From Streptococcus pantholopis (GTDB lineage: Bacteria; Bacillota; Bacilli; Lactobacillales; Streptococcaceae), in contig NZ_CP014699.1 in the NCBI RefSeq assembly GCF_001642085.1, forward strand, positions 1,612,001 through 1,676,000: DNA of 64,000 nt. Direction: 5' to 3'. This document shows, one piece after another, positions 45,961-63,760 of this stretch. The notes below the pieces were generated by a model. The model had not been told where the DNA came from, searched no databases, and worked only from the letters and a program-made list of their open reading frames with translations. The position numbers were made by a program, and so were the translations under genes. How positions within the stretch are numbered: the stretch's first letter is position 1; each line of letters opens with the position of its first letter.

Positions 45961-45990
45961 TTCTGCAAAAAGAAATAATCCAAGCTTCAG

Positions 45991-46002: not shown

Positions 46003-46008
46003 TCAAGC

Positions 46009-46037
46009 TTGAAAAAAATAAAATTTAACGCTATAAT
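46009..46037 (+). promoter_or_regulatory. lacI-type regulator promoter
   Basis: TTGAAA (46009-46014), 17 bp, TATAAT (46032-46037). Confidence 0.7.
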
Positions 46038-46142: not shown

Positions 46143-47153
46143 ATGGCTAAGTACTCTATTAAAGATATTGCTGAACTGAGCGGCGTTTCTGTCGCAACGG
46201 TTTCACGTGTGATTAATAACAACGGCCGTTTTTCTGACGAAACGCGTCAAAAAGTTTTAAAGGTCATTGAAGAAACCGGTTACCGTATGAACTACAGTGC
46301 TAAAAGTTTGCGAATGAACCGTTCTTATACTATCGGCATCATTATCCCTGATATTACCAACTATTTCTTTTCAAAAATAACTGAGTTAATTGAACAGGAA
46401 CTGTTTGCCTTAGGCTATTCTACCATTATCTGCAATACCGCCCGAAGTGCCGAAAAAGAAGCCTCTTATTTAAAAATGCTGGACAGTAAGGGCGTGGACG
46501 GCCTCATTATTATTTCCGGTTCTGAAAAATTTTCCTTTCATTCATCATCAGGCAAACACATTCCTTATGTCTGCATTGACCGCCAGCCAGATAAACTCTC
46601 AGAAACTATTTTTATCGCCTCTGATCACTTTGACGGTGCTTATCAAGCGACTGGCTATCTACTGGCACATGGCTGCCAGCACCCTTTACTGCTGACCCAT
46701 CAAAGAAAATCCTCTTCCAAAACCAACCGCCTGAAAGGGTTTAAAGAGGCTCTGGCAGAGCACCATATAGCCTTTCGAGCCGATCAGCATCAGCTGTTTT
46801 TTGATCCCCACAGGAGCGATTCGCAAGAGGCTGTTCTTCGTTTTTTGGATGCACATCCGGATATTGACGGCATTTTTGCCCTCAATGATTTTCTGGCCTT
46901 AGAATTTCTCTCACTTCTGTCCAGGCACAAACGCTCTCTTAAAAACATTCAACTAATTGGTTTTGATGACATTCCAGCTGCTGCATATGCTTCCCCCAGT
47001 CTCTCTTCGATTCGGCAGAATATTGAACAATTGGCCCATCTCAGCGTTGAAAAACTTCTTTACCTTTTCGACCACTCCAATACCTTGGGCAAAACCTATA
47101 CCCTGCCAGTTGAGTTGGTTGTCCGTGACTCTGTTGAACTGAACACGCCCTAA
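46143..47153 (+). CDS. LacI-family transcriptional regulator
   Basis: A 336-residue repressor with the LacI helix-turn-helix at the start (YSIKDIAELSGVSVATVSRV) and hinge region, then a ribose-binding-protein-like sensor domain (YTIGIIIPDITNYFFSKIT ... VPVELVVRD-like end). It is divergent from the alsE operon and the palindromes between them are its likely operators. Its last five codons and stop (GAACTGAACACGCCCTAA) coincide with the left end of a hairpin repeat, so the natural C-terminus seems to have been replaced by repeat sequence. Confidence 0.92.
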   Translation: MAKYSIKDIAELSGVSVATVSRVINNNGRFSDETRQKVLKVIEETGYRMNYSAKSLRMNRSYTIGIIIPDITNYFFSKITELIEQELFALGYSTIICNTARSAEKEASYLKMLDSKGVDGLIIISGSEKFSFHSSSGKHIPYVCIDRQPDKLSETIFIASDHFDGAYQATGYLLAHGCQHPLLLTHQRKSSSKTNRLKGFKEALAEHHIAFRADQHQLFFDPHRSDSQEAVLRFLDAHPDIDGIFALNDFLALEFLSLLSRHKRSLKNIQLIGFDDIPAAAYASPSLSSIRQNIEQLAHLSVEKLLYLFDHSNTLGKTYTLPVELVVRDSVELNTP

Positions 47154-47390
47154 GAGTTGTGCAGTGAAATCATCCAGTGGATGATTTCAGCCCGAACCCA
47201 GAAAAGGGAGAGTGAGGGGGCTGGAAATCTGTACCGTTACCTAGTTACAGCCGTAGACGTCTGAAGGCTTTGTCGTCTTAACAGCCGACCGTACCCTTCT
47301 AGTCGTCTTGGCAGGGGTGCGCCTTCGAAATCAAAGATTTCTGGCTTACCGCCATTTTTGCTTTGCTCTTTTAACGGGCTTTGTATCTTG
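47134..47390 (+). repeat. Hairpin repeat array 1 (one large unit)
   Basis: It begins with GAACTGAACACGCCCTAA and ends AACGGGCTTTGTATCTTG. Arms AAGAG/CTCTT and GCCC/GGGC pair. An apical TGAAATCATCC/GGATGATTTCA hairpin and one 105-bp module (47249-47353) lie inside. It is in the sense direction of the LacI gene and overlaps its stop. It fills most of the gap before uppP. Confidence 0.85.
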
Positions 47391-47427
47391 ATAAAAAAAG
47401 CCCGGAACAAAAGTTCCGGATTTTTTG
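47390..47427 (-). terminator. uppP terminator (bidirectional)
   Basis: CCGGAAC (47402-47408) pairs with GTTCCGG (47413-47419), with A and T runs either side. Confidence 0.8.
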
Positions 47428-47440
47428 GTTACAACTTATT

Positions 47441-48280
47441 TTATACTGCTAAAGTCAGCAGCCAATAAACCAGCAGGATGAAGCCCAGAACAATCCGGTA
47501 TTGGCCAAAAATAGTGAAATCATGTTTCTTGACATAATCAGTCAGAAAACGAATAGCGTACAGACTGACAATAAAAGCTGTTACACTGGCTGCCAGCAGG
47601 ATAATCAGCTGGCTGAAGGCTAATGTATTGCCGTCAATAAAGAATTTAACAGCTTTCAGACCGCTGTAGCCAAACATCGTGGGAATAGCTAAAAAGAAGG
47701 TGAAATCAGCTGCAACAGAGCGGCTGGTCCCCAGCAAAATTGCCCCTAAAATCGTTGCTCCGGAACGGCTGGTCCCAGGAACGATACTAAGAACCTGAAA
47801 ACAGCCGATATAAAAGGCTGTCCGGTAGGGCATACGCGCCAAACTGGTCACCTCTGGCTCTACATTTTGGCGACGTTTCTCAATCCATATAAAAGCGACA
47901 CCGTAGAGAATAAGCATAAAGGCTACAACAACGAAATTATAGAAGTGAGCTTCCATCCAATCATCCAGCAGCAAGCCAAAAATGGCCGAAGGAATGCAGG
48001 CCAAAACAACTTTAGCCCAAAGCTGCCAAGTAATTTGGACTTGGCGCGCTGTTTTTCCGGGCTGGAAAGGGTTGAGACGCTGAAAATAGATGACAATTAC
48101 CGCCAAAATAGCTCCCAGCTGAATAACAATATTGAACATATCCACAAAGTCTTTGCTTTGGTTGAACCTAACAAATTCCTGTACTAAAATCAGATGTCCA
48201 GTGCTTGAAATCGGCAGCCACTCGGTAATCCCTTCGATAATGCCGTAAAAGATAGCCTTCAATAACTCAATAATAAACAT
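47441..48280 (-). CDS. uppP: Undecaprenyl-diphosphatase (BacA/UppP)
   Basis: It recycles undecaprenyl pyrophosphate to the lipid carrier phosphate and gives bacitracin tolerance. The 279-residue membrane protein has [17 protein letters not shown] with the catalytic Glu/Ser/His region, and [12 protein letters not shown], the second active-site motif, plus about eight membrane segments. Single gene with its own terminator. Confidence 0.95.
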
Positions 48281-48365
48281 AATACTCCTTTATAACTTTT
48301 TGATGGCAAAAAAGACGTTTCACGAATAATCGGTTCTTCTGCTGCTTTTGTCCCAAGAAGGCGGC

Positions 48366-50285
48366 CTAAAAAGCACCTCCACCTCCTCCTCCGCCGCCGC
48401 CGGAAAAGCCACCGCCGCTAAAGCTTCCGGAACTGCCGGAAGAAACTGAAAAATTCGATGAACTGACAGCATTGGAGGACGTTTGAACAAGGTGGGCTGT
48501 CGAGAGTCCAAGCAAATAGTGAAAATCGGTAGACGGTACTTGCGAAAGTGCACCGAGCGAATGAATCTGGTGAATCTTTAGATAATGTTCTACTCTTTTA
48601 GCATAACCAAAAAGGGTCGCATAAACTAAAAGACGATTCCAAACAACGACACTCTCTATGTCTGCCCGATCAAAAGATTCAATATTAGCAATCATATTTC
48701 TAAAGCTATGCCAGTAGTAAACTCTTTCTCCGCCTTTCTCTGTCAGGACCCCTAGTCTGTAATACTTTCTTGAGCTGCTGTAAAAATAAAGATACAGGCA
48801 GACTGCAATGAGCAGCAAAACAGCATAAATGGCAGAAAAAAGATTTAACTTAAATATCAAATAAACCGCTATCCCTAACGAAAGCACAGCTAACAGCAGG
48901 ACAGAGCCTAACATTCTGTCGAGCTGCTTTTCTTCTCCTCTCTCTAAAGATCGGTAAGGAGAAACAAGCTGGTCTTCTTTGATATGCTCTAAAACACTAT
49001 CTGAGATTTCCCTGCTTTTAGTGTTAATCGCACTTAATACTTCCCTAGAAGCTTTACGGACTGCCTTTTCCAGTTTTTCTCCTTTATACTTCTTTTTCAG
49101 CTGCTTAAGGGTAGCTTTATGGTCATACTGATAAGCTGAAAACAGTTCATTCAAGGCCAGTTTAGTCTCATTGCCAAAGGCCATATCAAGAAAAACGACC
49201 TCTTCATCGCTTAATGTGTTTAAGTCACTGACTGTTAAGTACAATGTCCCATCTTCTTTCGTCAGCACTATATTTTTTCTATCAATCAAGTCCAGCAAGA
49301 CAGCCTGCACCAGATTTTCAAAACGAATATCTGATTTTTTCTTAATCCGTGTGGGGCTCAGCCGGTAAAAACTGCTTCCAAAAATATTTTGCGTCAGAAC
49401 CAGTGGTGATAAATCTTCAGGCACCTCGTACAGTCTGACTTTGCGGTCGGAACGCTGGTAGCGGTTCAACTTCTTTCTCAGGCCTCTAAAGTTCCAAAAA
49501 ACATAGCCTAAATAAAGAAGAAAAACACTTGGCAGCAAATAAGCAAAGAAGATGTTTAAAAAGCGACTCATCCGAGAAATACTTTTTTCTTGAGCGATAA
49601 TCTGTTCCCTGCCGGCTTCATTTTTTTCTATCGCTGTGCTGATGACTTCCTTATCCCAATAGGCGTGCAGCTCAAGCTTAGAAGTAACACTGCCGGCAGA
49701 CACAGTATAGCTGCCGTCCTTTGCATTAACCTCAGGCACCGGTTTAAAGTAACCCTGGTGCGCCCACAGCTGACTGTCAGCGGTCTTTTTTGCTGTTTTG
49801 ATCCTGAACTGGACATTGTGAAGCGTCACATCCCAGTCACTGATTGGGACCCAATTGAGCTCAGCAACATCTTGGTATTTGTATAAGATATTATAGAGCT
49901 GCCAATGGATTACCAGTCTAACTTCACTGCCGCTAAAACCGGAATTATAGATTTTCACCTCATAGCCATCACCTAAGTTGCTGACTGATATATTGTCAAT
50001 ATCGGTATAAACTCCGTCATTATAGACCTCTATATCGGGACTGTCCCCAACGGAAAAACCTTCCGGCATGTTGCCGGCCTCACCTAAAGTAACAACTTGA
50101 CCATTGTAATAGGAATCAAAGTGGTAAACAATAGTTTGAGTAAAATCAGCACTGTTATCTTCATTAACTACTAAGTCGCCGGTATAGCTGGTAATACTGT
50201 AATCCACATCTGCGGCTGCAGCAGCCTGTGTAAAGCCAAAACTAAGCAGCAGGAGCACAAACATTAGCCAAAACTTTTTCATCAT
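48366..50285 (-). CDS. DUF2207 membrane protein
   Basis: A 639-residue protein of the DUF2207 (YciQ-like) family. A signal peptide (1-25) precedes an outer beta-rich domain (about 26-235), a membrane segment (FLNIFFAYLLPSVFLLYLGYV), a long cytoplasmic helical part, two more membrane segments (about 460-500) and a Gly/Ser-rich tail ending in a run of Gly then AF. The function of the family is unknown. A second ATG 3 bases in (50282) is better spaced from GGGGGAG. Lone gene, divergent from the glutamine transporter. Confidence 0.85.
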   Translation of the reverse strand: MMKKFWLMFVLLLLSFGFTQAAAAADVDYSITSYTGDLVVNEDNSADFTQTIVYHFDSYYNGQVVTLGEAGNMPEGFSVGDSPDIEVYNDGVYTDIDNISVSNLGDGYEVKIYNSGFSGSEVRLVIHWQLYNILYKYQDVAELNWVPISDWDVTLHNVQFRIKTAKKTADSQLWAHQGYFKPVPEVNAKDGSYTVSAGSVTSKLELHAYWDKEVISTAIEKNEAGREQIIAQEKSISRMSRFLNIFFAYLLPSVFLLYLGYVFWNFRGLRKKLNRYQRSDRKVRLYEVPEDLSPLVLTQNIFGSSFYRLSPTRIKKKSDIRFENLVQAVLLDLIDRKNIVLTKEDGTLYLTVSDLNTLSDEEVVFLDMAFGNETKLALNELFSAYQYDHKATLKQLKKKYKGEKLEKAVRKASREVLSAINTKSREISDSVLEHIKEDQLVSPYRSLERGEEKQLDRMLGSVLLLAVLSLGIAVYLIFKLNLFSAIYAVLLLIAVCLYLYFYSSSRKYYRLGVLTEKGGERVYYWHSFRNMIANIESFDRADIESVVVWNRLLVYATLFGYAKRVEHYLKIHQIHSLGALSQVPSTDFHYLLGLSTAHLVQTSSNAVSSSNFSVSSGSSGSFSGGGFSGGGGGGGGGAF

Positions 50286-50414
50286 CTCCCCCTTTCTTAT
50301 CCTATTATTTTATCATAAAAATGTATCATTATACTATTTATAGGTAAAGAACATTGAAATGCAGGTCTATTTTTTGTAAAATGGTAGTTGTATAAATAAA
50401 AATAGGAGCCCTCG

Positions 50415-51971
50415 ATGAAGAAGATATTTTTAAGCCTGTTTGCTGTCCTTCTCATATCCTTTGGAGGTCTGACGAGGATCAAGGCAGATGACTATTTGCG
50501 TGTCGGTATGGAAGCCGCTTATGCGCCTTTTAACTGGACACAGGACGATGACAGCGGAGGTGCTGTTCCAATTGAAGGAACCAACCAATATGCCAATGGT
50601 TACGATGTGCAGATTGCTAAAAAAATCGCCCAATCTTTAAACAAAGAGCTGCTCGTCGTTAAAACTTCCTGGACAGGCCTTATTCCGGCGCTGACATCTG
50701 GAAAAATCGACATGATTGCTGCAGGTATGAGCCCGACAGAAGAGCGTAAAAAAGAGATTACCTTCTCAGACAGCTATTATACCAGTGAACCGGTTATTGT
50801 GGTTGCTGCTGACGGAGAGTATGCTGAAGCTAAAAGCTTAGATGACTTCGCAAATGCTAAAATCACTGCCCAGCAGGGGAATTATCTGGTTAACTTAATC
50901 AGTCAGATTCCAAATGTTTCCGAGCAAACTGCTATGGGAGACTTCTCCCAAATGCGGCAGGCTCTTTCAGCCGACGTCATAGATGGCTATATCTCAGAAC
51001 GTCCGGAAGCCCGTACTGCAGAAGCGGCCAGCAGTAAATACAAAATGATTGCCTTCCCCGAAGGACAGGGGTTTGAAACTTCCGAATCTGATACTGCTAT
51101 CGCTGTTGGTCTGCGTAAGGACGACAGTCAAACACTGGCACAGGTCAATGATATTTTGGCGGGGATATCTGAAGAAGAACGGCTGGATCTGATGGATCAG
51201 ATGATCGAGCAGCAGCCTGCCGAAACAGCAGAAGAAGGCGAAACACCTTCCTTCTTCCAGCAAGTCTGGACCATTGTCCAAAATAACTGGCAGCAGTTCC
51301 TGCGCGGAGCGGGAATTACTCTGTTAATTTCGATTATCGGGACTGTCGCCGGCCTCATTATCGGCCTTTTAATCGGTGTTTACCGTACGGCTCCGCTGGC
51401 TGCCAACCGTTTTCTGGCCTTCCTGCAGCAAGCTTTTGGCTGGCTGCTAACCGTCTACATTGAAATTTTCCGCGGAACCCCGATGATTGTTCAGGCTATG
51501 GTTATCTATTACGGAACAGCTCAGGCTTTTGGTCTTTCTATCGACCGTACATTGGCAGCCATTTTTATCGTTTCAATCAATACGGGTGCCTACATGAGTG
51601 AAATTGTCCGGGGCGGTATTTTTGCCGTTGACCAAGGACAGTTCGAGGCAGCTACCGCTCTTGGTTTTTCTCACGGCCAGACCATGCGGAAAATCGTCCT
51701 GCCTCAAGTTATCCGCAACATCCTGCCGGCAACCGGCAATGAGTTTGTCATCAATATTAAAGACACCTCAGTATTAAATGTTATCTCTGTCGTTGAGCTG
51801 TATTTCTCCGGAAATACTGTGGCAACTCAGACTTACCAATACTTCCAAACCTTTACCATTATCGCTGCCATTTACTTCGTCCTGACCTTTACTGTGACAC
51901 GTATTCTGCGCTATATTGAAAACCGTTTGGATCAAGACAATTACACCACTATCGAAGGAGAAAGCCACTAA
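50415..51971 (+). CDS. Glutamine-type ABC transporter, fused substrate-binding and permease protein
   Basis: A 518-residue fusion seen in streptococci: signal peptide (1-24), type 3 substrate-binding domain (about 26-265; [46 protein letters not shown]), then a HisM/GlnP-like permease (about 285-510) with the EAA motif [21 protein letters not shown]. It imports polar amino acids, probably glutamine/glutamate. The ATPase gene follows with a one-base TAATG overlap. Confidence 0.93.
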
Positions 51972-52711
51972 TGACGGATACGATTTTAGAAATCAAACAT
52001 TTGAAAAAATCCTTCGGGAAAAACGAGGTACTCAAAGACATCTCCTTGGCGGTCAACAAAGGGGAAGTCATCTCCATTATCGGTTCTTCAGGTTCTGGAA
52101 AATCAACGCTCCTGCGTTCTATCAACCTTTTGGAAGAACCGACAGCCGGACAAATTCTTTTTCACAATCAAAATGTCTTAGAAAAAGGCTATAACCTAAA
52201 CCTCTTTCGGGAAAAACTGGGAATGGTTTTTCAGTCCTTTAATCTCTTTGAAAATCTGAATGTCCTTGAAAATGCCACTGTCGCTCAGACCACTGTCTTA
52301 AAACGCGACCGCAGTGTGGCCGAAAAGATTGCTAAGAAGAACTTAAATCAAGTGGGAATGACTGAGCAATACTGGAAAGCCAAACCTAAGCAGCTCTCAG
52401 GAGGTCAAAAGCAGAGAGTAGCTATCGCCCGTGCTCTTTCAGTTGATCCAGAAGCAATGCTCTTTGATGAACCCACATCGGCACTGGATCCGGAAATGGT
52501 CGGTGAAGTCCTAAAAACCATGCAGGATCTTGCTAAATCAGGCCTGACAATGATTATTGTGACTCATGAGATGGAATTTGCCAAGGATGTCTCTGACCGG
52601 GTTATTTTCATGGACCAAGGTGTCATTGCCGAAGAGGGTACACCTCAGCAAATCTTTGAAAATCCTAAGGAAGAACGGACCAAAGCTTTTCTTAAACGCT
52701 TTTTAAAATAA
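51971..52711 (+). CDS. glnQ: Polar amino-acid ABC transporter ATPase (GlnQ type)
   Basis: A 246-residue ATPase driving the preceding fused transporter. Walker [14 protein letters not shown], signature [15 protein letters not shown], Walker [14 protein letters not shown] and H-loop VTHEMEFA are intact. Coupled to the permease by stop/start overlap and followed by a strong terminator. Confidence 0.95.
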
Positions 52712-52734
52712 AAATAGGCTCTCATATATGAGAA

Positions 52735-52766
52735 AACCAGAAAGCAACAGGCTTTCTGGTTTTTTA
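52735..52766 (+). terminator. Terminator of the glutamine transporter operon
   Basis: AACCAGAAAGC (52735-52745) pairs perfectly with GCTTTCTGGTT (52751-52761), then six Ts. Confidence 0.9.
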
Positions 52767-52783
52767 CTGCAATCACAGCAGGC

Positions 52784-53056
52784 TTATAAGTCTTTTAATT
52801 CAGAACGCTGCAATTCTGACAGCTTTTTCTGACGCAGGTAGCGCTTAAGCCAGTCTTCCAGTTCACAGCCGGCTAAAGCTAGGAACATCATCAGGAGAGG
52901 CAGATAAACTAAATGCACACCTAAAAACAGTGATAAAGGTAAAGCAAACAGACAGCTTCCTAATAAAGGCAGCCACTTATTTATCCCTGTATAACGAATA
53001 ACGAACCATTCTGCAAAAAATAAAACAGCAGCCAGCAGTACAATCAACATTCTCAT
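52784..53056 (-). CDS. Small membrane protein
   Basis: This 90-residue protein has two or three hydrophobic segments (MLIVLLAAVLFFAEWFVI, WLPLLGSCLFALPLSLFLG, YLPLLMMFLALAG) and a charged tail (LKRYLRQKKLSELQRSELKDL). It overlaps the upstream DUF2089-type regulator gene by 4 bases, so the pair is one unit. This resembles small regulator-membrane protein pairs, but the function is unknown. Confidence 0.7.
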   Translation of the reverse strand: MRMLIVLLAAVLFFAEWFVIRYTGINKWLPLLGSCLFALPLSLFLGVHLVYLPLLMMFLALAGCELEDWLKRYLRQKKLSELQRSELKDL

Positions 53057-53352
53057 GGTTCTACCTCCTTCCTTTCTTTACGGTAGGCAGCAATCAATTT
53101 CTTGGCGGCCTCAAAGCTTATCTCATCCTCCAAAGCCAAATCCTTGATTAGGCTGATATAGCCCTCCTTCTTAGATTTGACGGAGACTCTCTGAATCAAT
53201 CGGTCAAGGCGCAGGCGAATAGTCGGATAAGAAACCCCGTACTCCTTTGCCATTTTTTTCAAAGAACCTGAAGTGAGAATAAAGCGATGCATAAACTCAT
53301 AATCTTCCGGCTCCAACTCAAGCAGCCAAGATGGGATATTTTCGTCTCTCAT
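53053..53352 (-). CDS. DUF2089-like helix-turn-helix protein
   Basis: A 99-residue protein: IPSWLLELEPEDYEFMHRFI followed by LTSGSLKKMAKEYGVSYPTIRLRLDRLI, a helix-turn-helix of the DUF2089/sigma-4-like kind, and an acidic/basic C-terminal helix. It likely regulates itself and the membrane protein it overlaps. Promoter TTGATT (53399-53404), 17 bp, TATACT (53376-53381) on the minus strand. Confidence 0.78.
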   Translation of the reverse strand: MRDENIPSWLLELEPEDYEFMHRFILTSGSLKKMAKEYGVSYPTIRLRLDRLIQRVSVKSKKEGYISLIKDLALEDEISFEAAKKLIAAYRKERKEVEP

Positions 53353-53375
53353 ACCGTCACCTTCTCTCTCATTCC

Positions 53376-53404
53376 AGTATAACCTTAAATATTATGAAAA
53401 TCAA
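53376..53404 (-). promoter_or_regulatory. Promoter of the DUF2089-like gene
   Basis: TTGATT, 17 bp, TATACT. From here to 53731 I see only AT-rich sequence and a GC-rich hairpin ACTGCT-CTGCT/AGCAGCAGT at 53559-53583. Confidence 0.65.
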
Positions 53405-53731
53405 CTTTAAAATTATTAAAAATAAAAGTTATTTTTTTAAAATTATCGTTAATCATCAGCAGACATACTTTTTTAGTCATATTAGCTCAAGTTCTAAAAG
53501 CAACAACAACCTGTTTTCTTTCTAAAAAGCTGGTATCAGCTGCTGTTTTTGCTGAAAGACTGCTACTGCTGGGCAGCAGCAGTGGTCCAAACAAACACAT
53601 TCTGACCAAGATTGGGATATCTTTTTAAAATCCGTTTTTACATAAATCACTCTTATAACCAGCCATAAAAAATTTAGATTATGCAAAAATCCATTGAGAT
53701 GTTAAGATAATGGCAATCAATTTTTTTGGAG

Positions 53732-54149
53732 GTCCCTAAAAGATAAGCAAAAGGGATGGTTCATCTGCACTGATTTCATTGCTAGTCAGCCGTAAACGTC
53801 TGAAGGTTTTGTCGCCTTAACAGTCGACCGCACCTTTCTAGTCGTTCTGGCAGAGGGGCGCCTACGAAATCAAAGATTTCTGGCTTACCGCCAGCCGTAA
53901 ACGTCTGAAGGCTTTGTCGCCTTAACAGTCGACCGCACCCTTCTAGTCGTTCTGGCAGGGGGGCGCCTACGAAATCAAAGATTTCTGGCTTACCGCCATT
54001 TTTGCTTTGCTCTTTTAACGGGCTTTGTATCTTGTTGAATTGAACACGCCCTAAACGCTGCGGGAAAAAGATGTCCTGACTTAGAATCTGGTGATTCGTC
54101 AGTCAGTCCCCTATTTTCCTTTTGCGTTTTTAACGGGCTTTGTATCTTT
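53732..54149 (+). repeat. Hairpin repeat array 2 (one large and one basic unit)
   Basis: Unit A (53732-54034) has a worn left arm (CCCTAAAAGATAAGCAAA) and right arm (TTTGCTCTTTTAACGGG) around two tandem 105-bp modules (53788-53892, 53893-53997). Unit B (54035-54149) runs from TTGAATTGAACACGCCC to TTTGTATCTT, with arms AACGC/GCGTT and its own apical hairpin CTGACT-GAATC/GATTC-AGTCAG. The end of unit B is 8 bases from AAAGGAG of the next gene. Confidence 0.85.
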
Positions 54150-54168
54150 ATTTAAAAGGAGAGAACTT

Positions 54169-54723
54169 ATGTCTGCTAAATTCCCTATTCATACAATTGA
54201 AAGTGCCCCAGAAAATCTCAAAGAAAATCTGACGGCTGTCAAAAAAAATAATGGTGGTTATATTCCGAATCTTATCGGTCTTTTAGCTAATTCACCGACT
54301 GCCTTGGAAACCTACCAGACAGTTGGGGCTATTAACCGCCGAACCAGCCTGACTGCAACTGAACGCGAAGCTGTTCAGATTACAGCAGCTGTAGCCAATG
54401 GCTGTGCCTTTTGTGTTGCCGGACATACTGCAGTTTCCATTAAGCAGGTCAAAATTCCCCAAGATGTTCTGGAGGCACTCCGTAAAGGAACACCAATTGA
54501 CAGCGATCCTAAGCTCAATACGCTGGTTAAATTTACCTTGGCTGTTATCCATAACAAAGGTAAGGTCGGCGACCAAGCCTTAGATGATTTCTTTGCGGCA
54601 GGCTACAGTCGGGAAAACGCTCTGGATGTCGTGCTCGGCGTCAGCCTCGCTACTTTGTGCAATTATGCCAACAATCTGATCAATACCCCAATCAATCCTG
54701 AATTACAGCCTTATGCTTTATAA
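54169..54723 (+). CDS. Carboxymuconolactone decarboxylase / AhpD-like protein
   Basis: A 184-residue all-helical protein with the AhpD-type redox motif in NGCAFCVAGHTAVSIK (CxxC followed by His), as found in peroxidase partners and CMD-family enzymes. It may reduce peroxides or disulfides, but no cognate peroxiredoxin lies next to it. ATG 54169 with AAAGGAGAG is chosen; a longer reading from 54091 goes through the repeat. Apparently co-transcribed with the dehydrogenase-like gene 27 bases on. Confidence 0.83.
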   Translation: MSAKFPIHTIESAPENLKENLTAVKKNNGGYIPNLIGLLANSPTALETYQTVGAINRRTSLTATEREAVQITAAVANGCAFCVAGHTAVSIKQVKIPQDVLEALRKGTPIDSDPKLNTLVKFTLAVIHNKGKVGDQALDDFFAAGYSRENALDVVLGVSLATLCNYANNLINTPINPELQPYAL

Positions 54724-54750
54724 AGAAATGGTTAAAAAGAGAGAACGAGT

Positions 54751-55815: not shown

Positions 55816-55886
55816 TTTTTATAAGCCGGCAGGGACAGTGTTAGTTAAATGCTGCCCCTCTTTTTATCTGAGTTAAAGGAGGGTCT

Positions 55887-56804: not shown

Positions 56805-56915
56805 CTAGGTAGAAACTCATGCTCACTATAGGGATTAAATTTTCTCTTTCTAAAAACGATTTCTGTCTCGGTGGGGCTTCCCACATTGCCAGTTCGAAAC
56901 AGAGCCGCAAAATAC

Positions 56916-56952
56916 AAAAAGCCTGACTTCTATTAAAGAAGCAGGCTTTTTA
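56916..56952. terminator. Bidirectional terminator
   Basis: AAAAAGCCTG and CAGGCTTTTT (56916-56950) with internal TTC/GAA pairing, between the convergent TDT and SPFH genes. Confidence 0.85.
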
Positions 56953-57038
56953 TCTTAAGTTTTTGAACTAATATTTCCAGACAAAAAAGTACCGGTTTTA
57001 ATGGGGCATTCCTTGTCTGGAAAAGACAGTTTTTGCAT

Positions 57039-57926
57039 TTATTTGGCTTTCAAAGCTGATAGAACTTGAGTGCGAATATCCTCTACTCCATCAGGTTTGC
57101 TAGGAAGAAAGAGGGTTTGATTGCCGGCTGCCGCAAACTGATTTAGAGTATCAAGATATTGGTTAGTCAACAGAATAGACATAATCTGCTCTTCTGTCAT
57201 CCCGACATTAGCCAGCTTTAGTTCCTGAATTGATTCTGCCAAACCATCGACAATTGCCTTACGCTGTTGAGCAATACCAACACCATGCAGGCGATCTTTT
57301 TCTGCCTCAGCTTCTGCAGCTGTAACAATCTTAATTTTATCGGCATTGGCCAGTTCCTGAGCAGCAACACGTTTCCGCTGTGCAGCATTAATCTCATTCA
57401 TGGACTGTTTAACTTCTGCGTCAGGTTCAACCTTGGTAATCAGAGTTTTAACAATAAGATAGCCGTATGTTGACATTTCCTCTGCCACTTGATGCTGAAC
57501 CTCTAAGGCTATTTCATCCTTTTTCTCAAACAGTTCATCCAGTGTCAGCTTTGGCACTGAAGAACGCAGAGCATCTTCAATGTAGGACTTAATCTGAGCT
57601 TCCGGCCTCATCAATTTGTAATAAGCATCTGTCACATTCAGCTCATTGACCCGATACTGTGTAGCAATGTTTAAAGTAACAAAAACATTATCCTTTGTTT
57701 TGGTCTCAACTACAATTTCAGACTGCAGCAAGCGCAGCTGAATTCGTGCGGCAATCTTATCAATACCAAAGGGCATACGGACATGGATCCCGCTGCTGGC
57801 TACCCCCTGATATCTCCCAAAACGCTCAATAATAGCAACAGACTGCTGCCGAACAACATAAAGCGTACTGCCAATCACTATGAGAATAATAAAAAGCAAA
57901 AAGAAAATAAAAAATAAAGCAAACAC
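57039..57926 (-). CDS. SPFH/Band 7 (stomatin-like) membrane protein
   Basis: A 295-residue protein with one N-terminal membrane segment (FALFFIFFLLFIILIVIGSTL) and a prohibitin-homology domain (QQSVAIIERFGRYQG ... RVNELNVTDAYYKLM), then a long coiled coil (about 180-235, AEEMSTYG, NAAQRKRVAAQELANADKIK) typical of stomatins that scaffold membrane microdomains. The start is GTG with GAGGAGG seven bases upstream. Repeats lie directly ahead of it, and a strong promoter beyond them. Confidence 0.9.
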   Translation of the reverse strand: MFALFFIFFLLFIILIVIGSTLYVVRQQSVAIIERFGRYQGVASSGIHVRMPFGIDKIAARIQLRLLQSEIVVETKTKDNVFVTLNIATQYRVNELNVTDAYYKLMRPEAQIKSYIEDALRSSVPKLTLDELFEKKDEIALEVQHQVAEEMSTYGYLIVKTLITKVEPDAEVKQSMNEINAAQRKRVAAQELANADKIKIVTAAEAEAEKDRLHGVGIAQQRKAIVDGLAESIQELKLANVGMTEEQIMSILLTNQYLDTLNQFAAAGNQTLFLPSKPDGVEDIRTQVLSALKAK

Positions 57927-57945
57927 CCTAAAACCTCCTCAAATT

Positions 57946-58320
57946 AAGATACAAAGGCCGTTAAGAAATCCGTATGAAAATAGGGAAGAACGAGCGATGA
58001 TCCACATCGCGACGGACTTCATCTTTTTCACTAGGATTTTAGGCCGTGTTCAGTTCAAATAAGATACAAAGGCCGTTAAGAACGCAAAAGGAAAATAGGC
58101 GGTAAGTCCGAAATCTCTGATTTCGCAGACGCACCCCTGCCAGAACGACTAGAAGGGTGCGGTCGGCCGTAGGACGACAAAGCCTTCAGACGTTTACGGC
58201 TGCCTAACTGTGAAATCAATTCTATATTTGATCATGCTTTTTCCCGCAGCGTTTAGGCCGTGTTCAGTTCCAACAAGATACAAAGGCCGTGAAAAGAGCA
58301 AAGCCTTCAGACGGCTGCTA
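57946..58320 (-). repeat. Hairpin repeat array 3 (two units and a fragment)
   Basis: Unit a 57946-58060 (arms AAATCC/GGATTT, apical GCGATG/CATCGC). Unit b 58061-58274 with one 105-bp module (58098-58201) and arms AACGC/GCGTT. Unit c is a right-end fragment from 58275. In the transcript of the SPFH gene they are in sense, and the CTTTGTATCTT end is 5 bases from its GAGGAGG. Confidence 0.85.
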
Positions 58321-58350
58321 TGTATTTTGTTGTCCCATTCAGATAATACA

Positions 58351-58378
58351 ATTATAGTTTTTTTCATGTTTTTGTCAA
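58351..58378 (-). promoter_or_regulatory. Promoter of the SPFH gene, inside an inverted repeat
   Basis: TTGACA (58373-58378), 16 bp, TATAAT (58351-58356) on the minus strand. A perfect 13-bp inverted repeat (TTTTCATGTTTTT at 58361-58373 and its complement at 58381-58393) covers the -35 and spacer, a possible operator. Confidence 0.75.
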
Positions 58379-58477
58379 GGAAAAACATGAAAATACAAGG
58401 AAAAGCTTTCGAAAATGTCTGCTTTCTGAAAGGAAAACACAATGAACACTGGATTGAATGCTGCTGCGAAAATGAGT

Positions 58478-59728
58478 CTACACAAGCATATTATAAAGGC
58501 TTTCGTTGCCATGTAAATTAATATAAGAAGGGTCAAAGACTGACAGCCGTTCGATAAGTGCAGCGTAATCAGCCTTATCCCCCAAAGTGATTCCAATCAG
58601 CACCGGCCCCGTTCCTTTGTTTGCCCGTTTGATATATTCAAAACGTGTGATATCATCGTTTGGCCCCAGAATATTATTGACAAATTCCCGAAGGGCACCC
58701 GGTCTTTGCGGAAAATTGACTACAAAATAATGCTTAACGCCGTCATAAATCAGGGCACGCTCCTCCATCTCCTGCATGCGGTTAATATCATTATTTCCTC
58801 CCGAAATAATGCAGGCAACAGTCTTCCCCTTGATATCATCTTTCATAACTTCAAGTGCTGCTATGGCAGCAGCTCCTGCTGGTTCCGCAATAATCCCCTG
58901 TTTAGAATACATGTCTATCAAGGTTTCTGAAATCAAGCCCTCATCCACCCCAATCAGTTGATCAACATATCGTCTGGCCGCTTCATAGGTACTTCTGCCG
59001 ACTTTTTGCACAGCAATACCATCCGCAAATTTGTCAATGTGCTCCAATTTTACCGGGTGCCCCTTTTCAAAAGCTGCCCTCATACTTCTGGCACCGCTTG
59101 CTTCCACACCGATAACAGTCATATCAGGAGCCACATCTTTAAAATAAGTCGCTACCCCTGAAATCAAACCGCCGCCGCCAACAGGAACAAATACACTGTC
59201 AAAGCTGACACCATCGTCTTGAGCCTGCTCGTAAATTTCATAAGCTACTGTCCCTTGCCCAGCCTGAACATTGGGGTCATCAAAAGGATCAATAAAAGTC
59301 ATACCTTCAGCTTTGGTATAATCCAATGCAGCCTGAGCAGAAGCATCAAAAGTATCTCCCACTAGCTTTGTCGTCACATAGGGACCGCCAAAAAACTGAA
59401 CCTGTCCAATTTTTTGCTGCGGTGTTGTGACCGGCATAAAAATCGTAGCCGGAATTTTCATTTCATGACAGGTAAAGGCAACCCCCTGAGCATGGTTGCC
59501 GGCACTGGCGCAAACTACTCCTCTGCTTTTTTCTTCTTCTGAAAGCTGAGAGATAGCATAATAGGCCCCGCGAATTTTAAAAGAACGGACTTTCTGCATG
59601 TTTTCTCGTTTTAGGTAAACTGTTGCCCCATACTTTTCTGATAAATAACGGTCAAAATCTAATGGTGTTTTTTCGACAACATTTTTCAAAATATCATGGG
59701 CTTTTCGAACATCTCGGGCAGTTATCAT
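58478..59728 (-). CDS. ilvA: Threonine dehydratase (deaminase)
   Basis: It converts threonine to 2-oxobutanoate, the first step to isoleucine. The 416-residue PLP enzyme has the cofactor Lys in VRSFKIRGAYYA (about residue 51), the PLP phosphate loop VGGGGLISG and the serine/threonine-binding SAGNHAQGV. A single ACT-like regulatory domain (VNFPQRPGALREFVNNIL) ends it, the short Firmicutes form. The usual neighbours ilvBNC are not downstream in this window. Confidence 0.94.
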   Translation of the reverse strand: MITARDVRKAHDILKNVVEKTPLDFDRYLSEKYGATVYLKRENMQKVRSFKIRGAYYAISQLSEEEKSRGVVCASAGNHAQGVAFTCHEMKIPATIFMPVTTPQQKIGQVQFFGGPYVTTKLVGDTFDASAQAALDYTKAEGMTFIDPFDDPNVQAGQGTVAYEIYEQAQDDGVSFDSVFVPVGGGGLISGVATYFKDVAPDMTVIGVEASGARSMRAAFEKGHPVKLEHIDKFADGIAVQKVGRSTYEAARRYVDQLIGVDEGLISETLIDMYSKQGIIAEPAGAAAIAALEVMKDDIKGKTVACIISGGNNDINRMQEMEERALIYDGVKHYFVVNFPQRPGALREFVNNILGPNDDITRFEYIKRANKGTGPVLIGITLGDKADYAALIERLSVFDPSYINLHGNESLYNMLV

Positions 59729-59774
59729 CTTCTATCCCCTTTTTTCACAATTTTCAGTTAATTTATTATAGCAA

Positions 59775-59801
59775 AAAAGCACTAAAATGCCTAGTGCTTT
59801 T
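59775..59801 (-). terminator. Terminator of the polyphosphate-polymerase operon
   Basis: AAAAGCACTA (59775-59784) pairs with TAGTGCTTTT (59792-59801); T run on the minus strand. Confidence 0.75.
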
Positions 59802-59873
59802 AAAAAGGACAAATAGATTCCTACGGGTAAGGTCGCCTAGCTTTTTGTGATTTCTTTGCCAAAAAGAAGGCGG

Positions 59874-60560
59874 TCAGAGAATTTTTTTCTTTTTAGCCAT
59901 TTTGCTGATTTTAATTTCAAAAATACCTTTATAAGACCGCAAATTATCCATAAGTATTTTATCGGTCGTCTGGGGTTTAAAATAAAGCAAATATTCTAAT
60001 TCGACAGTATTTTTTTGAGGAAGGGATTTTAGGGAAAGACACTCTGTCTCGCGGCAAAATTGGTTTAAAAAATGTTCTAACTTTGTCTCATAATCCTCTT
60101 CATCTGCTACCAACAGAGAAAGCTGGCGTCTTGCATGACTGACAGAGCCAAAGCCAAACTTTTCAAAAAGGAATAAAACAGCTGACAGAAAGCCTGTAAA
60201 AGCAACTGCTAAAGAGAGGTAGCCCATACCAACAGCAATTCCGCTGGCTGTTGCCATAAAAATAGCCAGCAGTTCTTTAGCTCCTCCGGCAGCAGAGCGA
60301 AAACGAATCAGGCTGAATGTTCCCGCAACTGCCACACTGGTCCCTAGATTACCGTTAACCATCAATATAATCATAGCAATAAGACTTGGGAGAAGAGTCA
60401 ACGTGACAACAAATTCTTTGGTATAAAGAGTCTTGTGTCTGTAAACGGCAGCTAAGAGCAGGCCTAAAAGCAAACTGGTTAATAAGGCCAGCAGTAAAAC
60501 TGAAGGCGAAAAATGAGCCTGTGTCTGCGAAAATACATTATTAAATAAATCACTGAACAA
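59874..60560 (-). CDS. DUF4956 membrane protein
   Basis: A 228-residue protein with four hydrophobic segments in the first 140 residues (including GTSVAVAGTFSLIRFRSAAGGAK, the conserved motif of DUF4956) and a soluble C-terminal domain. Start is TTG (60558-60560), overlapping the upstream gene by 11 bases, with GAGGTGAG as ribosome site; there is no ATG within the first 40 codons. Commonly paired with VTC-domain proteins, it may form the membrane channel or anchor for polyphosphate. Confidence 0.85.
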   Translation of the reverse strand: MFSDLFNNVFSQTQAHFSPSVLLLALLTSLLLGLLLAAVYRHKTLYTKEFVVTLTLLPSLIAMIILMVNGNLGTSVAVAGTFSLIRFRSAAGGAKELLAIFMATASGIAVGMGYLSLAVAFTGFLSAVLFLFEKFGFGSVSHARRQLSLLVADEEDYETKLEHFLNQFCRETECLSLKSLPQKNTVELEYLLYFKPQTTDKILMDNLRSYKGIFEIKISKMAKKKKIL

Positions 60561-61287
60561 GAGTACTCACCTCTTTTTGGTCATCAATTTGTCTGCGGTA
60601 AGCAGTAGCATATTTTGAAAACGACTGCGGTTCAATTTGGTATTTTTTTAAAATATCAGCCAGCCATTGCGGCATAGCATCTGATACTTTGATTTCCATA
60701 ATCAGCTTACCTTCTTCAAGCAGCGGCTGACCGTAGTTCCCCGCTGTTAAGGACACATTTTCTGTACGGTAAAGCAAATCCTGATCAATAGTCAGACGTA
60801 TTTTCCTGCTTTTAATTCCTCTAAGGGAATGGCGCTTGTAAGAAATATACATCATCGGCTGCAGCTGACCATAGCGAAGGCGTAAAAGATGCAGTTTTTT
60901 AGTCATTTCAATATCTGCTGTTGTTTTGTCTACCAGACCGTTTGTAACATAATCCATAATGGATAGAGGATTTGAAACCAAACGAAATTTGTAACCGACA
61001 TCCAGCTTCTTTTCCTTAATTTCTAAAAAGGCCTGACTCTCTTCATTAGGCTGCTCTTCATAGGTGCGCATCCTAACTTTTTCCCGATTATGTAAGTGCG
61101 AGATAGAATCTTGGATCATCTGAAAGTCCTTATTGTCAAAATAAACATTGCTGATGGTTGAAGCCGGATAGTCATCGGCGATTAAATAATCCTTCCATTC
61201 TTCCTGCAAAAGGGCTAAAACTTCTTTTGTTAGAATATACTTTGTTTCGATACGCTTAAACTGAGTCTGAGTTTGCTTAGTTTTCAT
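60550..61287 (-). CDS. VTC-domain polyphosphate polymerase-like protein
   Basis: A 245-residue tunnel-fold (CYTH-like) protein of the VTC family, which polymerises ATP gamma-phosphate into polyphosphate in yeast. It has RIETKYILTKEV, SNVYFDN, REKVRMRTY, FLEIKEKK, YKRHSLRG and a final LIMEIKVSDAMPQWL with catalytic Glu/Lys. ATG 61287 has AAGGAGG before it; the longer frame from 61323 enters the operator. Overlaps the DUF4956 gene, and its promoter carries BlaI-type operators. Confidence 0.87.
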   Translation of the reverse strand: MKTKQTQTQFKRIETKYILTKEVLALLQEEWKDYLIADDYPASTISNVYFDNKDFQMIQDSISHLHNREKVRMRTYEEQPNEESQAFLEIKEKKLDVGYKFRLVSNPLSIMDYVTNGLVDKTTADIEMTKKLHLLRLRYGQLQPMMYISYKRHSLRGIKSRKIRLTIDQDLLYRTENVSLTAGNYGQPLLEEGKLIMEIKVSDAMPQWLADILKKYQIEPQSFSKYATAYRRQIDDQKEVSTLVQ

Positions 61288-61301
61288 ATTGAACCTCCTT
61301 G

Positions 61302-61392
61302 TTCTACTTTTGTAGAATATCAATCAAAAAAGAAAAGATGCCGTCATTAATTCTACATCTGTCGTTTATAATTATATTCTACAACTGTCTTA
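61302..61392. promoter_or_regulatory. Three BlaI/CopY-type operator sites upstream of the polyphosphate operon
   Basis: TTCTACTTTTGTAGAA (61302-61317), TTCTACATCTGTCG (61351-61364) and TTCTACAACTGTCTTA (61377-61392). The last two share TACA-NN-TGTC with a site at the blaI promoter (63762-63777). Confidence 0.7.
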
Positions 61393-61404
61393 CTTAAAAG
61401 TCAA
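61376..61404 (-). promoter_or_regulatory. Promoter of the polyphosphate operon
   Basis: TTGACT (61399-61404), 17 bp, TAGAAT (61376-61381) on the minus strand; the operator covers the -10. Confidence 0.75.
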
Positions 61405-61495
61405 GTAAAAAATACAGACTTCACAGATAAAATAAGGAAGACCAACCATTTGAGTTTTCACTCCCAGTCAAAATATAAGTCTGGAAGAGGCACAA

Positions 61496-61542
61496 AAGCA
61501 GGGGCAAGCTAGAAATCAAAGATTTCAGGCTTGCCCCTGCTT
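61496..61542 (-). terminator. Terminator after the blaI/blaR-like operon
   Basis: A 14-bp stem AAGCAGGGGCAAGC/GCTTGCCCCTGCTT with a GAAATC-AAA-GATTTC cap like the one in the 105-bp repeat module; minus-strand T tail TTTTG. Confidence 0.75.
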
Positions 61543-61599
61543 GCACTGATGCTGCTTAGACTGTATATCAGCAAGCCAGCTTCTGACTAAAGAAAATTG

Positions 61600-62868
61600 T
61601 CAGTCATCGTCATAATCATCATCATAATCTTCCAAATCATCATCATCGTCATCGTCGTCGCTATCCCCTGCCTCTGCCTGAACAGTCTCAGCAGGCATCT
61701 GGAGAGCTGCTTCTTGAGCTGGTGAGTTCGGAAGGGCAGATGCTGCGTCCTGACTGCTTCCCGGAGAGGAAGCAAAAGAATCCGTTTCCGCCTCCGAACT
61801 ACTATCTGACTGCTTTTCTTCTGTTTTTAAAGATGATGCTGTATCAGAAAAGACCGTTTTTAATGTTTGGCTGCCTGTAGCTGACAGTTGCTGACCGGTC
61901 AGCGCAAAAATTGAGCCGGAGCCAAGCAATGCCAGAAACAGGAAAAATGTCAGAACGGGCGATAAAATTTTCAAGGAACGGCCGCTTTCCATAATCGTCA
62001 AAATACGCCGGCGTAAGTTAAATTTATTAGAGTAAAAGCAGGTCGTCAAAGGACCTAATTCCCTCTTGCTGCGATCAACCATGGTCAAAATTGTCTCGCT
62101 GTAAAAGAAGCGAAAATCATTCTGATGACGATGCAGAACTGCATCGTCACAATAAGCTTCTGCAGCTTCCTGCATTTCTTTACATGCAAAACGCACAATA
62201 GGATTGAACCAATGAAGCGTCAAAATCACTGCTGTTAAAAGATTAGTATATAAATCATGATGCTTAAAGTGGGTAAGTTCGTGCTCAAAGATTAAATCCA
62301 ATTCTTCATCTGTATAGGCTGTTTCAGGCAAGATAATTGTCGGCCTACGAAAGCCAGTTAACATAGGGCTCTTAAGAGTCGGACAGACAAGCAGATCAAT
62401 GGCAGCTCTAATGCCTAATGATCTCCTGCTGCTTTCCAGACGTTTGTTTATAGGGCCGTCAGTAACCGGCTGCCCCCAATGTTTCAGCATTTGTCTAAAA
62501 CGATAATAAGCCAGAATCTGCCGGCTGACTGTCCAAAGGCAGCCAACAAGCCAAATAAACAATAGGAGAAAAATCCAAAAAGAAGGCGACAGACGGCTCC
62601 AAAAATCCGGCCTAGAGACTGAATCCGAAACAGTTGTGTAGGCAGCTGAACGGCTCCCCGGCAGAGATTGGAAAGGAACTTTCAGCAACCCTTGCCCAAA
62701 ATGAGGGCGCAATGGAATAATCAAGCCCAGCAGAATAAACAGCCAGAGAAAATATTTTGCCGCCGCCGATACCTTTGTTTTTAAAACAAACAGTATACCG
62801 CTTAAAAGCACAATGAGAATAGACGTCAGAAGATTTACCATTATTAGTGAGAATATTCGTTCTTGCAT
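61600..62868 (-). CDS. BlaR1/MecR1-like M56 metallopeptidase, antirepressor with Asp-rich tail
   Basis: A 422-residue membrane protease. Three N-terminal membrane segments (about 5-35, 36-56, 100-120) precede the zinc peptidase domain with HELTHFKHHD (HExxH, about residue 200) and a fourth segment near 310-330. In BlaR1 the part after that is outside the cell and binds beta-lactam; here it is a 95-residue Ser/Ala/Gln-rich stretch ending in an Asp-rich tail. The start is ATG 62868, one base after the blaI stop; GTG 62877 is an alternative. It should cleave or inactivate the BlaI-like repressor on a signal. Confidence 0.85.
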   Translation of the reverse strand: MQERIFSLIMVNLLTSILIVLLSGILFVLKTKVSAAAKYFLWLFILLGLIIPLRPHFGQGLLKVPFQSLPGSRSAAYTTVSDSVSRPDFWSRLSPSFWIFLLLFIWLVGCLWTVSRQILAYYRFRQMLKHWGQPVTDGPINKRLESSRRSLGIRAAIDLLVCPTLKSPMLTGFRRPTIILPETAYTDEELDLIFEHELTHFKHHDLYTNLLTAVILTLHWFNPIVRFACKEMQEAAEAYCDDAVLHRHQNDFRFFYSETILTMVDRSKRELGPLTTCFYSNKFNLRRRILTIMESGRSLKILSPVLTFFLFLALLGSGSIFALTGQQLSATGSQTLKTVFSDTASSLKTEEKQSDSSSEAETDSFASSPGSSQDAASALPNSPAQEAALQMPAETVQAEAGDSDDDDDDDDLEDYDDDYDDD

Positions 62869-62869
62869 C

Positions 62870-63253
62870 TTAATCACCTGCTTTTCTTTCCTGTATCAGA
62901 TGATTGATATCATCAAGGTCCGCATCAGATAACTGATGGGTTGAAAAGAAAGACTTCATTAAATTCCCGAACGACTGCCCTTTATAGCGCTCGAAGAAAT
63001 GGCTGGCCTCTACCTCCATATACTCATTTTCTGAAACAAGGGCAGTATAGAGACGTTCCCGGCCCTGCCGTTCACTGCTTAGAAAGCCCTTCTCTATCAA
63101 CCGAGCTAAAATAGTCAGAAGTGTCTGACGCTTCCAATGATTATCATCTCCCAAAGCAGTCATAATCTGTGAAGAGGTCACCGGATTGGGTAAATGCCAG
63201 ATAGCTTTCAAAACCGTAAATTCCGCATCCGGCAAACGCTTCATTGATTTCAT
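62870..63253 (-). CDS. BlaI/MecI/CopY-family repressor
   Basis: A 127-residue winged-helix repressor: LPDAEFTVLKAIWHLPNPVT, then QTLLTILARLIEKGFLSSER (recognition helix) and GRERLYTALVSENEYM (wing), with a C-terminal dimer helix region. GGGAGGG precedes the ATG. It pairs with the M56 protease gene. Its promoter and that of the polyphosphate operon share an operator of this family's type. Confidence 0.92.
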   Translation of the reverse strand: MKSMKRLPDAEFTVLKAIWHLPNPVTSSQIMTALGDDNHWKRQTLLTILARLIEKGFLSSERQGRERLYTALVSENEYMEVEASHFFERYKGQSFGNLMKSFFSTHQLSDADLDDINHLIQERKAGD

Positions 63254-63270
63254 AAATACCCTCCCACACC

Positions 63271-63738
63271 AAGATACAAAGCCCGTTTAAAGCTCACAGC
63301 AAAAATAGGAAAACTGACGAAGAAACTCCGGTTTCTAGGAAGTTTTATCTTTTTTGCAAAGAGCTTAGGCCGTGTTCAATTCATCAAGATACAAAGGCCG
63401 TTTAAAAATCCGTATGAAAATAGGGGATGGCAAGTGATGCCTAAGCATCACGATGACAGCCATCTTTTTCACTAGGATTTTAGGCCGTGTTCAATTACCA
63501 AGATACAAAGCCCGTTTAAAAATCCGTATGAAAATAGGGGATGGCAAGTGATGCTGGCATCACGATGACAGCCATCTTTTTCACTAGGATTTTAGGGCGT
63601 GTTCAGTTTCACCAAGATACAAAGCCCGTTAAAAAATCCGTATGAAAATAGGGGATGGCAAGTGATGCTGGCATCACGCTGGCAGTCATCTTTTTCACCA
63701 GGATTTTAGGCCGTGTTCAGTTTCAACAAGATACAAAG
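63271..63738 (-). repeat. Hairpin repeat array 4 (four tandem units and an end fragment)
   Basis: Units 63271-63385, 63386-63499, 63500-63613 and 63614-63727 (115, 114, 114, 114 bp), then an 11-base fragment. Units 2-4 have arms AAATCC/GGATTT and apical GTGATGC/GCATCAC; unit 1 has AAGCTC/GAGCTT and a different apex. The array lies between the blaI promoter and the blaI ribosome site, in sense. Confidence 0.92.
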
Positions 63739-63760
63739 CTCATGTTTTACTTTCACCTTT

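Follow-up and report, generated by a model that had tools for sequence, protein, structure and literature searches.

Genus-wide hairpin modules lodged beside start codons in Streptococcus

Four arrays of hairpin repeats lie in a 64,000-nucleotide (nt) stretch of Streptococcus pantholopis DNA (contig NZ_CP014699.1, positions 1,612,001 to 1,676,000), hereafter the window. They raise the question of what such modules are and how they can be tolerated beside the start codons of genes. The original prediction, made from this sequence, offered a miniature mobile element, a structured leader RNA, or both. The combination fits best: the position beside start codons is observed, while mobility is what we infer.

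We propose, with middling confidence, that the arrays consist of genus-wide, BOX-like palindromic modules of about 110 nt, mobile or recombining, whose folding makes insertion at a start codon tolerable. Such modules would lodge in untranslated DNA beside start codons and, in the reverse direction, at some gene ends, and would spread and swap as non-autonomous mobile or recombining DNA. Each would fold as a self-contained domain. Where a module splits the Shine-Dalgarno (SD) sequence from the AUG, folding could restore the spacing between them, and the insertion would then be tolerable to translation; in S. pantholopis itself, where the unit is mostly 5' of the SD, a folded module could leave the SD accessible. 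The nearly Watson-Crick-only arms suggest that they may also be shaped at the DNA level, by mobility that depends on the hairpin or by exchange between palindromes.

A unit of about 110 nt runs from an A box, AAYTGAACACG, to a C box, TTTGTATCTT. At up to three mismatches the window holds nine A-box matches, eight of them inside the arrays (shuffle mean 0.97), and 16 C-box matches (shuffle mean 8.15), 11 of which are array C boxes with 0-2 mismatches each. Both boxes are found in eight units (47136+, 54038+, 58269-, 58055-, 63722-, 63608-, 63496- and 63381-), and three remnants have the C box alone (54020+, 58275- and 63728-). Box searches thus recover the four arrays of the original prediction, with its count of about nine units resolved into eight two-box units and three remnants. 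The anatomy given there is amended: the A and C boxes pair with each other, and a second module, B (about 105 nt), is set apart, with one or two copies in units 47136 and 58269 and in the remnant ending at 54033. Twenty-two units of this genome and six of other species, 28 in all, served as seed for a covariance model, R1; the seed was limited to these because a MAFFT alignment of all 242 distinct units misaligned the second stem. Seven units of the window score high with R1 (77-117 bits), while two remnants reach no better than E 0.16 and 0.26. The array features are listed below; B-module boundaries are approximate.

47135..47389, + strand: array 1, a single unit (47136) with a B module inside and a terminator-like hairpin after it; found by box matches, with no R1 match at E 1
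47248..47354, + strand: B module of array 1, one copy
53787..53997, + strand: B modules of array 2, two in tandem
53998..54033, + strand: first unit of array 2, with 3' arm and C box, A box not found (R1 only E 0.26)
54038..54148, + strand: last unit of array 2, AAACGC/GCGTTT type (R1 117.1 bits)
58275..58339, - strand: truncated first unit of array 3, C box and 3' arm, identified by eye (R1 16.7 bits, E 0.16)
58061..58269, - strand: unit of array 3 with one internal B module, AAACGC type (R1 77.2 bits)
58098..58205, - strand: B module of array 3
57946..58055, - strand: last unit of array 3, AAATCC type (R1 94.9 bits)
63728..63741, - strand: C-box remnant of the leading unit of array 4 (C-box match)
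63614..63722, - strand: unit 1 of array 4, AAATCC type (R1 90.1 bits)
63500..63608, - strand: unit 2 of array 4, AAATCC type with GCCC/GGGC base (R1 101.5 bits)
63386..63496, - strand: unit 3 of array 4, AAATCC type (R1 106.3 bits)
63271..63381, - strand: last unit of array 4, AAGCTC/GAGCTT type (R1 114.7 bits)

The last unit of array 2 is followed by the SD AAAAGGAG and an ATG at 54169. After that of array 3 come the SD GAGGAGG and a stomatin/HflK-like gene that starts with GTG at 57926 and scores below the cut-off of the HflK model; after that of array 4 come the SD GGGAGG and a CopY/BlaI-like regulator that starts with ATG at 63253 and scores below cut-off with both the CopY and the BlaI model. 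The A box of array 1 overlaps the stop codon (47151-47153) of a LacI-type gene, 46143-47153. Just 5' of that gene, at 45946-46024, are two 34-nt direct repeats with GTAAACGTTTACTC, perhaps operators.

Each unit folds as one long irregular hairpin, on which individual folds and the alignment concur. The A and C boxes pair as GA.ACA with UGU.A.UC; inward follow GSCC/GGSC, a stem that varies among AATCC, ACGC, GAGC and GCTC types, another of A-rich/U-rich composition and then a fourth. A variable hairpin forms the apex, and internal loops part the stems. The arms do change together as had been claimed, with AAATCC/GGATTT, AAACGC/GCGTT, AAGCTC/GAGCTT and AAGAG/CTCTT all present and the base alternating between GGCC/GGCC and GCCC/GGGC, although we read four intact AAATCC/GGATTT units where five had been counted.

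In the 28 seed units RNAalifold gives 26 pairs, 16 of them with double-sided changes. The covariation holds over many more copies than the window's own. For a larger comparison we took the best 150 of 182 R1 matches (142 distinct) in 80 named Streptococcus loci, which had been picked by exact A/C-box pattern among the matches listed. In these, 94.4% of cells pair, double-sided changes occur in 24 of the 26 pairs (809 cells against a shuffle mean of 239), and the covariation score is 0.555, compared with 0.152 for shuffled and at most 0.105 for slid alignments; the alignment was fitted to R1, a bias in favour of pairing. The sense and antisense strands of 40 units have similar fold z-scores (-3.5 and -4.1, respectively). 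Of 67 pairs of adjacent units, 40 agree in stem-1 type (expected fraction 0.38) and 16 in stem-2 type (expected fraction 0.22). Because neighbours share the former but not the latter above expectation, the outer and inner parts of the unit seem to evolve apart.

How far does the family extend? The original prediction suggested a covariance search of other streptococci. Of 118 Streptococcus genomes, 116 yield R1 matches, the number of candidates scored being capped at 32 in each. A distribution drawn from the box pattern alone (16 of 59 genomes) was misleading and is set aside. Copy number is very uneven. The S. pantholopis genome (2,241,302 bases, one contig) holds 428 A-box matches at up to two mismatches (24 for the reversed-pattern control) and 239 B-module matches at up to three (control 1), and units have 0-3 B modules between their A and C ends. 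At up to one mismatch, its nearest relative found (G153, stomatin-like protein 95% identical) has 314 A-box matches (control 3), and seven other genomes have 75 (G021), 32 (G066) and, in the remaining five, 1-3 (control 0-2). R1 matches at E ≤ 0.01 number 14 in S. infantis SO and 49 in S. ratti FA-1. The family is thus genus-wide, and heavily amplified as tandem arrays in the S. pantholopis genome.

In an order-wide draw of 80 genomes, R1 matched 11 of 11 Streptococcus and 14 of 69 others. Matches outside the genus are weak (best E 7e-9), and eight of the 14 genomes belong to one other family (f2), with 16 (G036), 31 (G044), 17 (G057), 5 (G195), 1 (G187), 3 (G203), 2 (G210) and 5 (G217) matches; these may mark a related hairpin repeat there. 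Carriage of the array at 57941-58300 by phages or plasmids was considered and dropped: no phage matched it, and the single plasmid match was 64 nt long. That match lies in an S. agalactiae plasmid record (CP147646.1, 129360-129423), with 86% identity to query positions 149-212, in or near the B module.

Another arrangement, different from that of the window, is found in other species. At their carB, deoD, uvrA, prfA and prmA genes, a unit stands between SD and AUG. Gene names rest on protein models, carB and uvrA being scored as 200-amino-acid pieces, below whole-protein cut-offs. The C-box end lies within 14 nt of the ATG in 30/30 of the closest carB and 30/30 of the closest deoD loci, and an SD-like sequence, scored within 20 nt of the ATG, is present in none of them (0/30 and 0/30). 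Farther upstream, all 30 carB loci have AGAAAGGAG at 134-135 nt from the ATG, and 29 of the 30 deoD loci have AGAAAGG at 114-134 nt. SD and AUG therefore flank the hairpin, with no SD near the AUG, at 30/30 carB and 29/30 deoD loci.

The carB unit ends 4-6 nt before the ATG and has AGAAAGGAG or a similar sequence on its 5' side, both in the 30 closest loci and in seven of 20 distant ones. The carB gene of S. pantholopis is one of these 20 and has no unit. Judged by eye, the 13 distant loci without an R1 match comprise eight with the SD adjacent to the ATG (L336, L337, L344, L346, L347, L348, L353 and L354), three that look like decayed units (L340, L341 and L351) and two ambiguous cases (L338 and L342). 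At deoD, four different unit types (by eye) occupy the site in species whose DeoD matches the query at 98-100% identity; in eight of 20 distant loci the SD is adjacent to the ATG, again by eye, and in four others (L450, L457, L458 and L459) short hairpins of unrelated sequence stand between SD and ATG. Of 30 uvrA loci, 11 have a GTATC[AT]T end before the ATG, five a TATATCAT end and 13 no unit, the start being missed by offset in the last one. Two uvrA loci (L434 and L435) have an adjacent SD and no unit, the L434 protein being 97% identical, and B-like modules stand in the uvrA leaders of genomes that UvrA identity places close to S. suis. The order SD, unit, AUG recurs at prfA (S. suis YS161), prmA (S. 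ratti), and parC and dnaJ (S. infantis).

We then folded 53 distinct carB and deoD leaders with the SD and the start region held single-stranded. All 53 form one external domain, compared with 1.9-2.0 domains for shuffled inserts, and the folding energies give z-scores of -5.6 (deoD) and -5.0 (carB) against shuffles. The unpaired nucleotides left between SD and AUG number 9 or 12 for carB and 11-17 for deoD (shuffles 13.5 nt, standard deviation 8.4-8.5). With a one-domain fold, a ribosome would thus meet 9-17 unpaired nt on its way from SD to AUG, rather than 114-135. At 23 of 32 distinct sites, the stretch from SD to unit contains an A-box complement of a quality matched by no more than 5 of 100 shuffles; it is predicted to be able to close a second hairpin or three-way junction.

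Placement in S. pantholopis was read over 28 segments (199 kb with the window), which contain 46 array ends. At 41 of these, by our reading, an SD-like sequence and a start codon of the same orientation come within about 2-10 nt; at the other five, including the window's end at 47389, they do not. A scripted count of 34 terminal units finds a sense start within 45 nt for 31 and no start for three, with an SD in the gap for 28 and the start 9-22 nt away. The scripted context counts cover 427 aligned of 524 listed matches (394 distinct), the alignments holding the best 150; weaker matches, such as dnaJ L262 and parC L266, lie outside them and were judged by eye. Array beginnings fall at an upstream stop codon in some cases and after a -10-like TATAAT in others. 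At the stomatin locus, S. pantholopis and G153 have arrays between -10 and SD, with last units that differ, by eye, in one base; two other genomes (L179 and L185) have a short leader and no unit there.

The genes downstream of S. pantholopis arrays include gatC, murC, rbfA, upp, frr, phoH, thrS, rnc, pdxA and jag/khpB. These ten, tested out of 31 listed, encode unrelated proteins, and a regulon was rejected on that ground. The array 5' of rnc (RNase III) lies directly upstream of it at 1370-1825 of L170. Two arrays of the same genome, ending near 1767 (L169) and 1503 (L171), are followed by a terminator-like GTTATCGGCCTTAGGGCTGATTTTT or a variant of it and by no SD. Elsewhere units are intercistronic, as in carA|carB, dnaK|dnaJ, rpsN|rpsH and pdhB|pdhC, where carB and dnaJ are named by protein model and the other names are presumed. 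Before dapB, mitis-group loci (L032, L037, L044, L048 and others) have an apparently old array in which units of two types alternate, two to four in all, the SD lying 3' of the array. A unit also occurs at the 3' end of a presumed rpsO-like gene (L243).

That units spread and swap would follow from the existence of sites with and without them, and from four units occupying one deoD site at 98-100% DeoD identity; the differences in copy number between genomes point the same way. As to the arms, selected RNA helices tolerate G.U pairs, and the stems of nine tRNAs in the window, taken as a control, contain 174 Watson-Crick, 12 G.U, no A.C and 3 other pairs. The units are different: alignment A4 has 3356 Watson-Crick, 46 G.U, 75 A.C and 127 other pairs, and A5 has 2773, 56, 37 and 44, respectively. 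In A2 and A3, G.U stands against A.C at 11 to 19 and 20 to 21. Without two odd pairs (one with 34 A.C, the other with 20 G.U) the A4 figures become 25 versus 39; in A5 one odd pair holds 46 of the 56 G.U and another 24 of the 37 A.C, and 10 versus 13 are left. Hence the clear G.U excess expected of RNA-selected helices, seen in the tRNA stems, is absent from unit alignments A2-A5 (A4 against tRNA, Fisher p 2e-5, cells treated as independent). Since G.U and A.C are similarly rare, the constraint looks strand-symmetric, as it would for a hairpin of DNA, for exchange between palindromes or for units used in either direction. This balance is no proof against an RNA role.

Several results weigh against our proposal. 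The lack of a G.U excess over A.C speaks against selection on RNA as the chief source of the covariation; the original prediction took covariation as the mark of a selected RNA or DNA hairpin, and the covariation is upheld but does not by itself show selection on RNA. Compared with shuffles, folding brings no clear shortening of the mean spacing in the deoD leaders (14.2 vs 13.5 nt; graph distance 17.2 vs 18.8) and only a modest one in carB (10.4 vs 13.5 nt; graph distance 13.4 vs 18.5). We accordingly set aside the idea that the folded path from SD to AUG is shorter than chance, which has no support at deoD, and because of this the evidence in the predicted folds is their uniformity and stability. 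Bridging is needless in the S. pantholopis genome, where the SD mostly comes after the unit. R1 finds the unit in only seven of the 20 distant carB loci, and the carB, deoD and rpsN loci are related sequences rather than independent cases. An ATG or GTG follows the upstream SD by 4-10 nt in 21 of 53 leaders, making short leader open reading frames possible; a conserved leader peptide was discarded, the feature not being universal. At many loci presumed to be rpsN (L258, L271 and others) units lie antisense directly after the stop codon, before the presumed rpsH. Among 240 terminal units of other species, many of them from rpsN orthologues fetched for the analysis, 88 have only an antisense gene end within 40 nt and 53 have neither that nor a sense start. 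Finally, we could read off no target duplication, and in the empty-site comparison with G153, matches beyond 150 nt are repeat-to-repeat except for a stretch near 37481-38237, with no usable orthologous flanks.

A more specific version of the proposal, which we hold only tentatively, is that these mobile hairpins are specialised for the initiation region: they would insert between SD and start or 5' of the SD, be swapped as cassettes and persist by folding away, creating natural split sites of more than 110 nt, including those of parC and prfA. Both genes are usually essential. If true, this would be a translation-initiation analogue of a self-removing coding insert, without removal of RNA, and an example of a repeat colonising important genes by folding. 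If the split sites are bridged, nature would have tried out many times over what distance, and by what means, ribosomes can span a divided initiation site. A genus-wide repeat with no Rfam match, and with over 400 matches to its box in a single genome, also bears on leader annotation, start-site prediction and genome rearrangement.

The strongest rival, unlikely in our judgement, is that the units are purely parasitic hairpin repeats of the BOX or RUP kind, of which only insertions into untranslated gaps survive, so that their position reflects the gaps and neither bridging nor function. Very uneven copy numbers, tandem arrays, B modules, the diversity of downstream housekeeping genes (10 tested of 31), antisense copies at gene ends and nearly Watson-Crick-only arms all agree with this view, which Croucher et al. 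argued for BOX in the portion of their account used here (PMC3049150). It sits less well with the split sites, which are filled in 30/30 close carB and 30/30 close deoD loci despite the unit swaps at deoD, and with the unrelated short hairpins that fill the deoD gap in four other loci. Because occupancy persists through swaps and unrelated hairpins, structure at the split sites appears to be kept.

Three further readings are less probable. Units as cis-regulatory RNAs, that is, a leader regulon answering one factor or ligand, would suit the conserved internal loops and boxes found genus-wide, the sense position 5' of genes in 31 of 34 terminal S. pantholopis units, and dapB, carB and deoD leaders common to many related species; we consider this improbable given the lack of a coherent gene set among the ten tested, variable occupancy, antisense copies and G.U as rare as A.C. 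Template switching in quasi-palindromes, correcting one arm to the other, could produce covariation without selection, and the rare and about equally frequent A4 intermediates in both directions (3356 Watson-Crick, 46 G.U, 75 A.C) conform to it; we find it quite improbable, as arm correction alone should erase the internal loops, which stay unpaired in the 28-unit consensus. Hairpins for mRNA processing or stability, such as RNase III sites between operon genes, seem very improbable to us, despite the intercistronic positions, the long imperfect duplex and an array before rnc itself, which is only suggestive.

The hairpin family can finally be set beside known repeats. No Rfam family matches over the repeats at gathering scores in the whole window, an E-value search of 57900-58360 gave 1.5 and 2.2 at best, and we recognised no published description of the hairpin family in the open-access literature. 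REP/RAYT and other hairpin-dependent mobile repeats are palindromic and high in copy, with arms compatible with single-stranded DNA folding. The hairpin family is likewise palindromic, of high copy and nearly Watson-Crick-only in its arms; unlike them, it has long units, which in the S. pantholopis genome mostly point the same way as the gene after them. RUP elements have IS630-related ends and a TA target duplication. The original prediction did not recognise its repeats as BOX, RUP or SPRITE, and for BOX this agrees with the one copy tested, at about 752-870 of locus L065, which we take to be BOX from its boxA/boxC motif. It was in the searched set and has no R1 match at E 0.001, the only match of L065 at that threshold being at 7853-7961.

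According to the sections of PMC3049150 drawn on here, BOX is a small interspersed modular repeat of S. pneumoniae and S. mitis, found near genes, whose ends pair in its predicted structure. The hairpin family shares these traits, as well as optional internal modules, variable in number (0-3 B modules), between fixed ends. It departs from BOX in distribution: the same sections have BOX nearly confined to pneumococcus and the mitis group, with BOX-type repeats also in S. suis, whereas the hairpin family occurs in 116 of 118 Streptococcus genomes (PMC3049150). The S. suis BOX-type repeats (RepSU1) have A to F modules, with A and C of about 50 nt each and B modules between them, and thus resemble our A...C units with B modules in a comparison by description only, within the same part of that source (PMC3049150). 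Two S. suis records (L082 and L094) carry units of the hairpin family. The S. suis repeats, on that comparison by description, may be the same family, and in that event the novelty would be the genus-wide extent, the covariation and the position between SD and AUG, not the repeat itself. For that position the precedent is phage T4, in whose genes 25 and 38 an RNA hairpin joins SD and AUG, reducing 27 nt to 11 and 22 to 5, experimentally established in the part of the report consulted (PMC3014915). The predicted split sites described here have the same order of SD, hairpin and AUG; unlike those of T4, with 27 and 22 nt in that part of the report (PMC3014915), they span 114-135 nt, are made of a repeat and occur in many bacterial species and at several genes.

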